Positions 22,060-33,103 of a stretch of DNA of 64,000 nt are shown here, in pieces. The stretch is from Hyphomonas sp. Lineage in GTDB: Bacteria; Pseudomonadota; Alphaproteobacteria; Caulobacterales; Hyphomonadaceae. The stretch is from the NCBI GenBank assembly GCA_013791775.1, contig VMTE01000018.1, positions 1 through 64,000 of the forward strand, in the 5' to 3' direction. The stretch's first letter is position 1. Each line of letters starts with the position of its first letter. Position numbers and translations under genes: made by a program. Under the pieces are notes generated by a model. The model searched no databases and was not told where the DNA came from. It was given only the letters and a program-made list of their open reading frames with translations.

Positions 22060-22206
22060 ATGACATCGATTGACTGTCCGATCTTCGACGTTGCGTTCGC
22101 CGACTTGCGGCCAGCGCCCTGTATGCCGCGCTTTGCCAGTTGCTGGGCGGTGCCAGCCCGAGTGGTCACTGACGAGACGTCGCCGAAAAGGTTAGTGGGC
22201 GGATGA
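22060..22206 (+). CDS. Candidate 48-residue peptide coupled to the P-type ATPase
   Basis: ATG 22060 has AGGAG seven bases upstream, and its TGA overlaps the ATG of the ATPase gene (ATGA). Codon third positions are about 70% G or C, compatible with coding. The peptide has three Cys (DCP, PCM, SCW) and no membrane segment. It may be a leader or a small partner protein. It matches nothing I recognise, and chance cannot be excluded. Confidence 0.35.
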   Translation: MTSIDCPIFDVAFADLRPAPCMPRFASCWAVPARVVTDETSPKRLVGG

Positions 22207-24761
22207 TTGCTGCGGAAGACGTGACTCTCAAGGTTCAGGGATTGGGCAGCGAAGAAGCCCGTCGCCGGCTGCAAGAACTCGGGCCAAACGAAATGGATCC
22301 CGGGCGCAGCAGATCCGTGATCGCCATCGTTTTCGAGACGCTGAAGGAACCGATGTTTCTGCTGCTCATTGCGGCGGCGACCATCTATGCCTTCATGGGC
22401 GATCTGGGCGAAGGCCTGTTTCTGCTCGGTGGCGCCGGGGCGGCTATTGGGTTGGTCATTTTCCAGGAGGCCCGCAGCGAGCAAGCCCTGAGGGCGCTTC
22501 GGCAACTCGCGCAGCCACAGTCGCGCGTATTGCGCGACGGCGCAGATTGCCGGGTGCCGGCGAGGGAAATCGTGCCGGGCGATATAGTTCTTGCCGGCGA
22601 AGGAGAACGCCTTCCAGTCGATGGCCTGCTCGTCGCAGGAGACGTCCTTAGTGTCGATGAGTCGGTGCTGACGGGAGAGTCGGCGCCAGTGGCCAAGACA
22701 CCATCCCAGGACGCGTCTCTGGCCGACGAAGGAGCGAGGCCTGGTTCAACAGCCACACATCATGTGTTTGCGGGAACACTCATCGTCCGGGGACAGGCAG
22801 TTATCCAGGCAACCCGGACGGGGGCGCAGTCTGCGCTTGGCCGTATCGGCAGCTCTCTTGCCGACATCGAGCATGAACGCACGCCGCTGCAGCAATCCAC
22901 AGGCAAGCTGATCGGTTATCTCGGTCTTGTTGCGCTGGCATTCTGCAGCCTGACTGCGGCGACATACGGCCTGCTGCTCGGCGACTGGCCCGGCGGCGCA
23001 CTCGCTGGCATCACGGTTGCGATTGCGCTGATACCTGAAGAGTTCCCGATGGTCCTCGCGATCTTTCTTGCGCTCGGGGCCTGGCGACTGGCCACGCACA
23101 AGGTCCTGGTCCGGCGCAGCGCGGTGATCGAGACGCTTGGGGGGGCAACGGTACTTTGCGCGGACAAGACGGGTACGCTGACGGAAAACCGGATGCAGGT
23201 AGCGCGTCTTTGGACACAAGAAGGCCAACAGGTCATCGTGCCAGATGGCGACATGTCGGCGCCTGTGCGCGAACTTCTGCAGATTGCCGCGCTGGCTTCG
23301 GCCGTCCGGCCTGTGGATCCCATGGACCGGGCTGTTCGTGCCTTGAGCGGCGCGGCAGCGCTGACTGGAGCGGGCATGGCCCCGGAACCCGAACGCGCCT
23401 GGCCTCTGACCCCCAGCCTGCTTGCCGTCATCCAGCTGTGGCAGATGCCAGATGGTGCTCGCGTGGCCGCGGCAAAGGGGGCGCCCGAAGCGATTTTCCG
23501 GCTTTGCCGCCTGCCACAAGACCAGGCGGCGCATATGATGAGCATCGTCGAGTCCTATGCCGGTCTTGGCCTGCGGGTCCTTGGTGTGGCCAGCGTTCAC
23601 CTCAAGGACCGGATCTTTGAGGATCCCCTGTTGGGAGACTTCCGGTTTTCGGGCCTGATCGGTTTTATAGATCCGCTGCGCGCCGAGGTGCCACAAGCCC
23701 TTCAGGAAGCCCGACGCGCCGGTATCAAGGTCGTCATGATCACCGGGGATCACCCGACAACCGCAATGGCGATTGCAGCTGCGGCCGGCATCGATACGGC
23801 GGCCGGATTTATGGTCGGGTCCGAGATCGAGGAGCTTCCGTTTGAGGTACTCTGCGAGAAGCTGAAGACGGTACGCGTTTTTGCCAGGATTGCCCCTGAA
23901 CAGAAGCTCAGGATCGTGCAGGCACTCCGGCAGGATGGCGAAATCGTCGCCATGACCGGCGACGGCGTCAATGATGCGCCTGCCCTCGAGGCGGCCCATA
24001 TCGGCGTTGCGATGGGCCAGAGAGGTACGGATGTTGCCCGCGAAGCCGCCGACCTCATCCTGCTGAACGACAGCTTTGCGTCGATCGTCGGGGCGGTCCG
24101 TCTCGGACGGCGCATCTTCTCAAACCTCAGGCGTGCCATAACCTACATAATTGCGATCCATATCCCGATCGCAGGCCTTGCCCTTCTGCCGTTGCTGGTC
24201 GGCCTGCCGCCACTTTTCTTTCCCATGCACATCGTGCTTCTGGAGCTGGTGATCGACCCGACCTGCGCACTCGTGTTCGAGGCCGAGCCCAGTGACAGAA
24301 AGGCAATGCAACGCCCGCCCAGACGCTCCGGGGAACTCTTGTTTGGCCGCCGCGAGCTGGTCTTTGCTCTCCTGCAGGGCGCGGGACTTCTCGCTGCGGT
24401 TTTCGCGCTCTACTGGTCGCTTCTGACAGTCTGCGGAGCCGCCGAGCCAGTCGCGCGGGGCGCAGCTTTCATCGCGCTTGTCGTCGGCAACCTGGTTCTC
24501 GCGCTAACCGATTCTGCCGCCTCCGGACGCATCTTTGCTCCCCATCGGCGCGTCTTTTGGGCGATTGTGGCTGGCGTCGCCGTGGTGCTCGTGATTGTTT
24601 TCACGATTGATCCGGTCAGCGCCATTTTTGCAGTGGATCTGCCCGGGGCGGGGCTGTTGGCAATCGCGGTCGGGATCGGGCTCGCTGGCGGTGGCTGGAC
24701 AGCGCTGCGGTTTCTTTGGCCTGCCAACACCCCCGAGCGCCCCGAAGGGATTCCCAAATGA
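22203..24761 (+). CDS. Cation-transporting P-type ATPase (type II, calcium-pump-like)
   Basis: 852 residues. It carries the phosphorylation motif CADKTGTLTE (Asp near 320), the actuator motif LTGESAPV, the hinge TGDGVNDAPALEAAHIGVAMG, and an N-terminal cation-ATPase domain (LGSEEARRRLQELGPNE). Transmembrane helix 4 has PEEFPMVL in place of the PEGLP of classic calcium pumps; this variant marks a bacterial subgroup whose ion is not firmly known. About ten membrane segments fit type II. Its last codon overlaps the phosphoketolase start (ATGA), so the two are co-translated. Confidence 0.9.
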   Translation: MIAAEDVTLKVQGLGSEEARRRLQELGPNEMDPGRSRSVIAIVFETLKEPMFLLLIAAATIYAFMGDLGEGLFLLGGAGAAIGLVIFQEARSEQALRALRQLAQPQSRVLRDGADCRVPAREIVPGDIVLAGEGERLPVDGLLVAGDVLSVDESVLTGESAPVAKTPSQDASLADEGARPGSTATHHVFAGTLIVRGQAVIQATRTGAQSALGRIGSSLADIEHERTPLQQSTGKLIGYLGLVALAFCSLTAATYGLLLGDWPGGALAGITVAIALIPEEFPMVLAIFLALGAWRLATHKVLVRRSAVIETLGGATVLCADKTGTLTENRMQVARLWTQEGQQVIVPDGDMSAPVRELLQIAALASAVRPVDPMDRAVRALSGAAALTGAGMAPEPERAWPLTPSLLAVIQLWQMPDGARVAAAKGAPEAIFRLCRLPQDQAAHMMSIVESYAGLGLRVLGVASVHLKDRIFEDPLLGDFRFSGLIGFIDPLRAEVPQALQEARRAGIKVVMITGDHPTTAMAIAAAAGIDTAAGFMVGSEIEELPFEVLCEKLKTVRVFARIAPEQKLRIVQALRQDGEIVAMTGDGVNDAPALEAAHIGVAMGQRGTDVAREAADLILLNDSFASIVGAVRLGRRIFSNLRRAITYIIAIHIPIAGLALLPLLVGLPPLFFPMHIVLLELVIDPTCALVFEAEPSDRKAMQRPPRRSGELLFGRRELVFALLQGAGLLAAVFALYWSLLTVCGAAEPVARGAAFIALVVGNLVLALTDSAASGRIFAPHRRVFWAIVAGVAVVLVIVFTIDPVSAIFAVDLPGAGLLAIAVGIGLAGGGWTALRFLWPANTPERPEGIPK

Positions 24762-32174: not shown

Positions 32175-33103
32175 TCTGGCCGGTTCTGCCAGACCAGGTA
32201 GGCAGCCGCCAGCGCTGCTGATGCCGCCCGCTCGGCGGGGCTGTCGGCACGGCTTGTGAGGACGATTGGAACCTTGGCACCGAGTACGATGCCTGCCGCT
32301 TCGGCGCCGGCGAGATAGTCGAGCTGTTTGGCAAGCATGTTGCCGGCCTCGATTCCCGGAACGATGAGGATATCTGCGGCCCCTGCCACGGGTGAATACA
32401 GGCCTTTGGCGAGAACGGCTTCAGGCGACATCGCAAGGTCGAAGGCAAGCGGCCCGTCCAGGATTCCGCCCCTGATCTGGCCGCGGTCAGCCATCTTGCA
32501 AAGCGCAGCTGCGTCGATTGTTGATAGAATAGCCGGATCGACGAGTTCGGTTGCCGACAGGATCGCGGTCAGCGGTGTGTCGATACCCAGAGCGATGGCC
32601 AGATCAATTGCGTTCTGGGTGATCCAGCGTTTCGTCGGCAGGTCAGGCGCAATGTTGATGGCGCCATCCGAAATCAGGATCCATTTCGACCAGGCGGGCG
32701 TTTCCATCACGAACACATGGCTCATGCGTCGCTGGGTGCGCAGTCCGCCCTCACGCCGGACGCAGGCCGCCATAAGCTCGCCGGTTGCGATATGCCCCTT
32801 CATGATGATCGATGCGTTGCCCTCTGCCGCCAGCCGGACAGCTTCGTCAGCGGCTGCATGACTGTGCGGCACGTCCACAAGTTCCAATCCCGAGACGTCG
32901 AGCGCGGCGACTTCGGCCGCCGCCATGATCTTGTTCCGGTTTCCAATAAGTATGGGATCTATTAGGCCGAGCCTTTGCGCCTCAAGCGCACCGGACAGGG
33001 AGAGCGCATCGACAGGATGGACCACGGCGCATCTGTGTGCAGGTCGCCCCACGCGGTCCAGCAGGCGGGCAAAAGGTTTACGCGCAGTTTCTTCTTCAGC
33101 CAC
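32171..33103 (-). CDS. pta: Phosphate acetyl/butyryl transferase
   Basis: 310 residues from a GTG start. It exchanges acyl groups between CoA and phosphate, connecting acetyl phosphate to acetyl-CoA. It is the short single-domain form: GNRNKIMAAAE, MKGHIATGELM, RRMSHVFVMETP, ISDGAINIAPDL, DGPLAFDLAMSPEA and a C-terminal VPIVLTSRADSP are PTA/PTB family blocks. Phosphate butyryltransferase cannot be excluded by sequence alone, but the partner is acetate kinase, not butyrate kinase. Translationally coupled to ackA. Confidence 0.88.
   Translation of the reverse strand: MAEEETARKPFARLLDRVGRPAHRCAVVHPVDALSLSGALEAQRLGLIDPILIGNRNKIMAAAEVAALDVSGLELVDVPHSHAAADEAVRLAAEGNASIIMKGHIATGELMAACVRREGGLRTQRRMSHVFVMETPAWSKWILISDGAINIAPDLPTKRWITQNAIDLAIALGIDTPLTAILSATELVDPAILSTIDAAALCKMADRGQIRGGILDGPLAFDLAMSPEAVLAKGLYSPVAGAADILIVPGIEAGNMLAKQLDYLAGAEAAGIVLGAKVPIVLTSRADSPAERAASAALAAAYLVWQNRPE

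Follow-up and report, generated by a model that had tools for sequence, protein, structure and literature searches.

A phosphorylase paired with an altered PRPP-synthetase paralogue in Hyphomonas: a possible route from RNA to acetate and ATP

What becomes of the ribose phosphate released by a bacterial nucleotide phosphorylase when its gene lies in an operon with a ribonuclease, a phosphoketolase and a paralogue of phosphoribosyl pyrophosphate (PRPP) synthetase, and faces genes for acetate formation? We analyzed this question at a locus of Hyphomonas sp. (contig VMTE01000018.1 of assembly GCA_013791775.1; the window, that is, the whole stretch of DNA analyzed, is its first 64,000 nucleotides), whose genome comprises 3.93 Mb in 51 contigs and is rated 100% complete. 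We put at about one in two the probability that the locus is a low-oxygen or energy-stress cluster for the catabolism of nucleoside monophosphates (NMPs), acting in the following order. A beta-CASP ribonuclease would help convert RNA to nucleotides; the phosphorylase (NMPP) would cleave NMPs with inorganic phosphate (Pi) to free base and ribose 1,5-bisphosphate (R15P); and the PRPP-synthetase paralogue (PRS') would consume R15P, whose C1 phosphate would most likely pass to an adenine nucleotide, either as R15P + ADP <-> ribose 5-phosphate (R5P) + ATP or as R15P + AMP <-> R5P + ADP. Ordinary isomerases would carry R5P to xylulose 5-phosphate, which phosphoketolase would split into acetyl phosphate and glyceraldehyde 3-phosphate without a redox cofactor, and acetate kinase would turn the acetyl phosphate into ATP and acetate. 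Held more tentatively, and at odds below even, is the bolder proposal that the PRPP-synthetase fold has given rise, in PRS', to a new enzyme that acts as a reversible ribose-1,5-bisphosphate:ADP (or AMP) phosphotransferase, and that many Pseudomonadota may live on their own RNA without oxygen. We found no paper proposing this pathway, or substrate-level phosphorylation driven by R15P, in the open literature, subscription papers being mostly outside that coverage. The strongest part of the case is the near-obligate pairing of two genes:

28541..30046, plus strand: NMP (AMP-type) phosphorylase, NMPP; PRK04350 and TIGR02645 above cut-off
30046..30939, plus strand: PRPP-synthetase paralogue PRS' (PRK07199 type); NF005537 346 bits versus a cut-off of 322

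The pairing was counted in 398 Pseudomonadota genomes, with NMPP called by the PRK04350 cut-off and PRS' by PRK07199 at E <= 1e-70. NMPP occurred in 44 genomes, PRS' in 41 (40 above the family cut-off) and both in 40 (Fisher p about 3e-49, relatedness not corrected). The only genome with PRS' and without NMPP was G383, in which tblastn finds no NMPP within 19.5 kb around PRS'; four genomes have NMPP without PRS' (G249, G308, G382, G392). Neighborhoods were then read at 47 phylum loci from 44 genomes: the genome of the window was left aside, the 43 others above the NMPP cut-off were used, and G255 was added although its NMPP is under the cut-off and has a stop in frame. These and the other neighborhood counts come from tblastn with the window proteins, so that diverged genes can escape, and some stretches stop at contig ends. 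PRS' lay within 300 bp of NMPP at 38 of the 47 loci and anywhere in the stretch at 40.

The genes that take the place of PRS' elsewhere suggest what its substrate may be. At archaeal NMPP loci found by tblastn, an R15P isomerase gene adjoins in 5/5 and a RuBisCO gene in 4/5; neither was seen at the 90 other loci of the same search (three of them duplicates). The window genome, rated complete, gave no match to the IF-2B family, that of R15P isomerase, and none to RuBisCO. Its only match to the model of PhnN, the known R15P kinase, scored 33.1 bits versus a cut-off of 156. A user of R15P elsewhere in the genome, whether PhnN or the isomerase with RuBisCO, was thus rejected as a candidate for want of a match above cut-off. 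Since the known R15P users have no match above cut-off, PRS' is the sole R15P-using candidate genetically tied to the R15P maker, and it is probably the missing R15P enzyme. At four NMPP loci that lack PRS' (L092-L095), PhnN was matched by none of the 10 neighboring open reading frames (ORFs) scanned. Two of these have a different context, with nadC directly upstream of NMPP (L092:7770-10730 and L095:7925-10577), and the related copies at L093 and L094 have transporters or an amidohydrolase nearby; the same phosphorylase family perhaps serves pyridine-nucleotide or quinolinate catabolism there.

The assignment of NMPP rests on its domains and residues. It exceeds the cut-offs of the broader families (TIGR02645, 529.5 versus 434.6; PRK04350, 610.1 versus 434) and matches the archaeal structure 4ga5 (E 2.4e-92), deposited as a putative thymidine phosphorylase, which we take to be the Thermococcus AMP phosphorylase. 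NMPP aligns with 4ga5 from residue 32 and with pyrimidine nucleoside phosphorylases (PyNPs) only from about residue 102, and the N-terminal domain that is absent from PyNP and DeoA is present. Across 72 bacterial NMPP sequences 123 positions are conserved; 36 of them match 4ga5 only and 5 match PyNP only, one PyNP having been used. Identity as an ordinary thymidine or pyrimidine phosphorylase is excluded by these residues and by the N-terminal domain, and the AMP-type assignment in the first-pass annotation of this DNA holds to that extent: by domain and residues NMPP belongs to the AMP/NMP branch, and it is predicted to catalyze NMP + Pi <-> base + R15P. The Thermococcus enzyme accepts AMP, CMP and UMP (PMC9700705).

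PRS' is, by profile and by predicted fold, a member of the PRPP-synthetase family. It scores 172.3-172.9 bits with TIGR01251 (cut-off 113), and an AlphaFold model from 54 sequences (mean pLDDT, the predicted local distance difference test, 95.5) has as its best Foldseek match the PRPP synthetase 3mbi (E 1.3e-23, template-modeling scores 0.87/0.91). We compared PRS' with four PRPP synthetases, the genome's own Prs and three archaeal chains. In a first count of 59 ORFs, from which a locus dropped out if a longer overlapping frame had been chosen there, the positions aligned to the adenine, R5P and catalytic sites are retained: H127, D169 and K192 in 59/59, and R194, D219, D220 and T227 in 58/59, with one gap. 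A second count drew on 96 tblastn matches in 121 loci. After the Mg/ribose aspartate the four compared synthetases read PDxGG/GA, which we take to be the diphosphate-binding loop of type I phosphoribosyltransferases, and PRS' reads PDxES (E171 in 96/96, S172 in 93/96, W175 in 95/96); the HxR that follows the catalytic histidine is invariant (H129 and R130 in 96/96). The position of human K99, a basic residue after RQD, is isoleucine 97 in the window PRS' and K or R in 39/96; it counts for less than the loop change, because one of the three archaeal chains also has a non-basic residue (Q) there.

Studies of known PRPP synthetases (PRPS) give these positions a meaning. In the E. coli enzyme, D170 binds, via Mg, the ribose C1-C3 hydroxyls, and H131 binds the nucleotide phosphates (PMC9232217); by motif, we equated these residues with D169 and H127 of PRS'. 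In human PRS1, the K99 alanine mutant had no detectable activity, and H130A formed ADP rather than AMP, its kcat being similar and its Km higher (PMC4363470). The latter mutant indicates that the site of cleavage can change on this fold; because PRS' retains that histidine, H130A shows that a switch can occur but not by what means PRS' would make it.

It might be argued that PRS' is simply an ordinary PRPP synthetase isozyme, making PRPP for the re-use of bases from NMPP or RNA decay, so that the co-location reflects nucleotide recycling under stress. The profile score, the retained catalytic H, D, K and R and the closeness of the predicted fold to solved PRPP synthetases agree with this, as does a 2026 preprint in which catalytic residues are kept across the major PRPS classes defined there, although the membership of PRS' in those classes could not be told (PMC13252144); the main text of that preprint names neither AMP phosphorylase nor thymidine phosphorylase. 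We nevertheless regard an isozyme as unlikely, given the altered loop and K99 position, the near-obligate tie to NMPP, and an ordinary Prs (at least 358 bits) already present in 40 of the 41 PRS' genomes, the exception, G236, being 70% complete. A search for viral copies with the peptide patterns of PRS' gave no matching stretch.

The same observations bear on the earlier proposal that PRS' converts R15P to PRPP. PRPP synthetase moves a diphosphate to a free C1 hydroxyl, the loop is altered and an ordinary Prs is at hand, and for these reasons that step is disfavored and is the weakest in the chain first drawn for this locus. We propose instead a transfer of the C1 phosphate from R15P to an adenine nucleotide, which would better account for the changed residues and would make better sense energetically.

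The remaining genes of the cluster are these:

20966..21805, minus strand: usp, universal stress protein (PF00582), divergent from the operon
22203..24761, plus strand: P-type cation ATPase (PF00122, PF00689, PF00690, PF00702)
24758..27109, plus strand: divergent phosphoketolase (XFP); PF03894 126 bits and PF09364 46 bits, both above cut-off
27183..28544, plus strand: beta-CASP metallo-beta-lactamase (MBL) ribonuclease (PF00753, PF10996, PF07521)
30990..32174, minus strand: ackA, acetate/propionate kinase; PF00871 302.8 bits, TIGR00016 298.2 versus a cut-off of 293.4
32171..33103, minus strand: phosphate acyltransferase of pta/ptb type (PF01515)

Families, order, strands and overlaps are as first annotated. 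The operon has two ATGA overlaps, ATPase/phosphoketolase (phosphoketolase ATG at 24758) and RNase/NMPP, plus a one-base overlap between NMPP and PRS'; 73 bp separate phosphoketolase from the RNase. The ackA and pta/ptb-type genes converge on the operon and overlap each other by 4 bp, and usp diverges from it. The usp start was set at ATG 21805 instead of the mechanical 21916; this ATG and its flanks are kept at L003-L005. The ATPase passes the general TIGR01494 cut-off and no ion-specific one. The acyltransferase is of phosphate acetyl/butyryltransferase type, with PRK08190 at 429.7 (cut-off 282), PRK11890 at 410.6 (cut-off 413) and the pta model TIGR00651 at 44.9 bits (cut-off 311.2).

The phosphoketolase is divergent, its best NCBIfam subfamily score being 128.7 bits versus a cut-off of 777. 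The residues H89, H122, H177, D215, N246, E479, N546, SHQDP 549-553 and K599, which we take to be catalytic, align with those of solved enzymes and are invariant in an alignment of 11, and the enzyme is predicted to yield acetyl phosphate. A structure prediction from 11 sequences (mean pLDDT 76.5) was not considered reliable enough to be used in a fold search. The RNase is related to TTHA0252 (E 4.5e-66), aCPSF1-type proteins and Cas14, and its translation shows by eye the motifs THAHLDH, SGD, ESTYG, SAHAD and VHGE; it is predicted to degrade RNA. Its gene lies in the stretch at 20 of the 47 phylum loci, and at 13 of them within 300 bp. It is because of this neighboring nuclease that RNA, and not a pool of free nucleotides, would be the source.

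The nuclease also bears on whether the two central enzymes run the other way. In that case PRS' would use R5P + ATP to make R15P + ADP, and NMPP would couple a free base to R15P, forming NMP and releasing Pi; such base salvage would be cheaper than that through PRPP and would suit energy-poor cells. Both steps are reversible in principle, PRS' retains the residues that bind the adenine nucleotide and R5P, and many loci carry the NMPP-PRS' pair without a detected nuclease or phosphoketolase. A building direction nonetheless seems improbable to us, since nuclease genes accompany NMPP as often as just described, the Bradyrhizobium counterpart of the nuclease is co-regulated, and excess phosphate favors phosphorolysis.

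The acetate arm accompanies the pair in some lineages, often in the family of the window. NMPP is present in 40 of 101 family genomes, and the flanks of all 40 were inspected, several ending at contig ends. Phosphoketolase lies in the NMPP stretch in 20 of the 40: the four discussed next and G408, G419, G426 (on the opposite strand), G445, G449, G451, G452, G454, G463, G465, G468, G469, G471, G475, G484 and G492. The usual family order is phosphoketolase-RNase-phosphorylase-PRS'. The full set from usp to pta occurs in only 4/40, the window and L128-L130 (the same places as L003-L005), so that the eight-gene island first taken as a unit is not supported as a conserved one. Conservation beyond the strain extends to these three relatives for the full island and across the phylum for the NMPP-PRS' pair. 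In the closest named records, NMPP is 87-88% identical (two Hyphomonas metagenome-assembled genomes) and 86% identical (a record titled Acidobacteria). The island proteins of that record (L005) are 78-89% identical to those of the window, and it was probably misbinned or misnamed.

Outside the family, sets at L124 + L086, L125 and L083, for instance, are ordered differently, and this speaks against a single block simply passed down by vertical descent. L086 and L124 lie on one contig of one genome, as two phosphorylase/PRS'/phosphoketolase clusters of unlike gene order about 300 kb apart. The divergent class of phosphoketolase (about 130-154 bits in PF03894) is found in 13/398 genomes, beside NMPP in four (G000, G003, G154, G293); the other nine have no NMPP match. 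Five of the nine were inspected, and in four a beta-CASP RNase gene is divergent from phosphoketolase (L197, L198, L200, L201). RNase and phosphoketolase thus meet even where NMPP is missing, which in this small sample fits the idea of a route from RNA to acetate. Phosphoketolase of any class was present in 13/40 genomes bearing the pair versus 50/358 others (p = 0.005, relatedness not corrected).

Control by oxygen is documented in one lineage. In Bradyrhizobium diazoefficiens at 0.5% O2, protein levels rose (log2) by 2.9 for bll3115 (MBL), 4.4 for bll3116 (ribose-phosphate pyrophosphokinase), 2.1 for bll3117 (thymidine phosphorylase family) and 4.3 for bll2518 (phosphoketolase), and transcripts rose 15.4-, 7.7-, 5.1- and 8.2-fold, respectively (PMC6515984). 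Deletion of fixK2 decreased bll3115 30.6-fold, bll3117 6.6-fold, bll2518 10.0-fold and bll2517 (acetate kinase) 10.2-fold, and FixK2 boxes were predicted at -74 for the bll3117-3116-3115 operon (ATGATCTGGGTCAA) and at -89 for the bll2518-2517 operon (TTGACCTCACGCAA) (PMC9104804). We found ATGATCTGGGTCAA verbatim at -74 from the NMPP match start in L111 and L113, two of the four loci of a genus that the boxes suggest is Bradyrhizobium; in L114 the box differs by one letter, and L110 carries a different box farther upstream. TTGACCTCACGCAA is verbatim upstream of phosphoketolase-ackA in L203, L204 and L205 (in the last, the phosphoketolase match is partial and the distance not determinable) and was not found in L202. 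In Rhodopseudomonas palustris without FixK, a putative phosphoketolase fell 9.4-fold in one of six conditions and 2-fold in another, the remaining four showing no change or a smaller drop (PMC3050613). Upstream of NMPP operons at large, TTGA-N6-TCAA was matched 9 times in 9 loci versus 1.8 expected; we count this as weak support because four of the loci are near-identical relatives.

It is conceivable that there is no pathway, and that separately useful genes for low oxygen or stress (Usp, cation ATPase, RNase, overflow acetate enzymes) have come under one type of regulator. Gene order and membership do vary, the Bradyrhizobium halves are separate transcription units sharing FixK2, and FixK2 controls many unrelated genes too (PMC6515984, PMC9104804). 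Such an assembly would leave both the near-exclusive co-occurrence of PRS' with NMPP and the altered PRS' residues unexplained, and we consider it the most doubtful of the explanations.

Upstream of usp, the window carries a different kind of element:

21874..21888, no strand: 15-bp palindrome CGTTCAAATTGAACG, candidate operator, from an alignment of four intergenic regions

The palindrome lies in a conserved block (21864-21890) of the divergent intergenic region, is exact in the window and L005, has one substitution in L004 and two in L003, and is outside the FNR/FixK consensus. A genome scan with up to two mismatches gave 4 forward and 4 reverse matches versus 3 and 2 for the reversed control; matches not being above control, no regulon is indicated.

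Several observations weigh against the proposed catabolic route. By standard values, the step R15P + ADP -> R5P + ATP costs about 10 kJ/mol. PRS' retains the residues that catalyze PRPP synthesis, among them the histidine lost in the human mutant, so that plain PRPP synthesis is possible. NMPP falls under the curated AMP_phos cut-off (TIGR03327, 457.3 versus 535), which makes its substrate probable and not established despite the AMP-branch domain and residues. XFP, ackA and pta lie near NMPP at only 5, 4 and 1 of the 47 phylum loci, the phosphoketolase match at L103 being only 23% identical. The window has no TTGA-N6-TCAA FNR/FixK box in intergenic 21701-22260 or 33001-33500, and since loose matches number 17 versus 14.1 expected, such a box was rejected. 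The Bradyrhizobium genes bll3115-3117 and bll2518 stand in a looser list (log2 fold change >= 1 at both levels) outside the 62 significant proteins, without bacteroid induction and unmarked as FixK2 targets in a column that uses an older list (PMC6515984). In the fixK2 deletion table, bll3116 is named in the operon without a row of its own (PMC9104804). The link to low oxygen suggested from the first is borne out in Bradyrhizobium, where the same genes are induced in microoxia and depend on FixK2; as the window has no FixK-type box and a palindrome of another kind, we infer such control in its own organism.

Elsewhere in the window, at 58930-63825, genes for a TonB-dependent receptor, a queuosine salvage protein (PF10343) and a queuine tRNA-ribosyltransferase (PF01702) adjoin, possibly a bacterial set for queuine/queuosine uptake and salvage.

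Among the nearest known systems is the archaeal NMP shunt, or pentose bisphosphate pathway, of T. kodakarensis (NMP phosphorylase, R15P isomerase, type III RuBisCO), which has the same first enzyme family and the same predicted R15P (PMC9700705); unlike it, the window genome has PRS' in place of the isomerase and RuBisCO. The RuBisCO arm is likewise replaced in the haloarchaeal non-carboxylating pentose bisphosphate pathway, which retains R15P isomerase and adds a phosphatase and an aldolase, with no PRPP-synthetase-like enzyme in the scheme given there (PMC9700705). PhnN, the E. coli ribose 1,5-bisphosphate phosphokinase, is a known bacterial R15P user (PMC9700705) of a family different from that of PRS'. 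The B. diazoefficiens FixK2 operons bll3117-3116-3115 and bll2518-2517 also hold NMPP-PRS'-MBL and phosphoketolase-acetate kinase, split in two and presented as table rows with no pathway proposed beside them (PMC9104804); phosphoketolase at the loci matching FixK2 boxes is only 22-24% identical to that of the window.

The locus points to a bacterial version of archaeal nucleotide degradation in which a re-purposed PRPP synthetase replaces RuBisCO. If PRS' is the phosphotransferase we suggest, the energy of the glycosidic bond, captured with Pi, would become ATP by substrate-level phosphorylation. About a tenth of the sampled Pseudomonadota (40/398) carry the two families, annotated "thymidine phosphorylase" and "ribose-phosphate pyrophosphokinase". 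The pathway would assign a function to both, and would form a concrete link of oxygen limitation, RNA decay and ATP supply.

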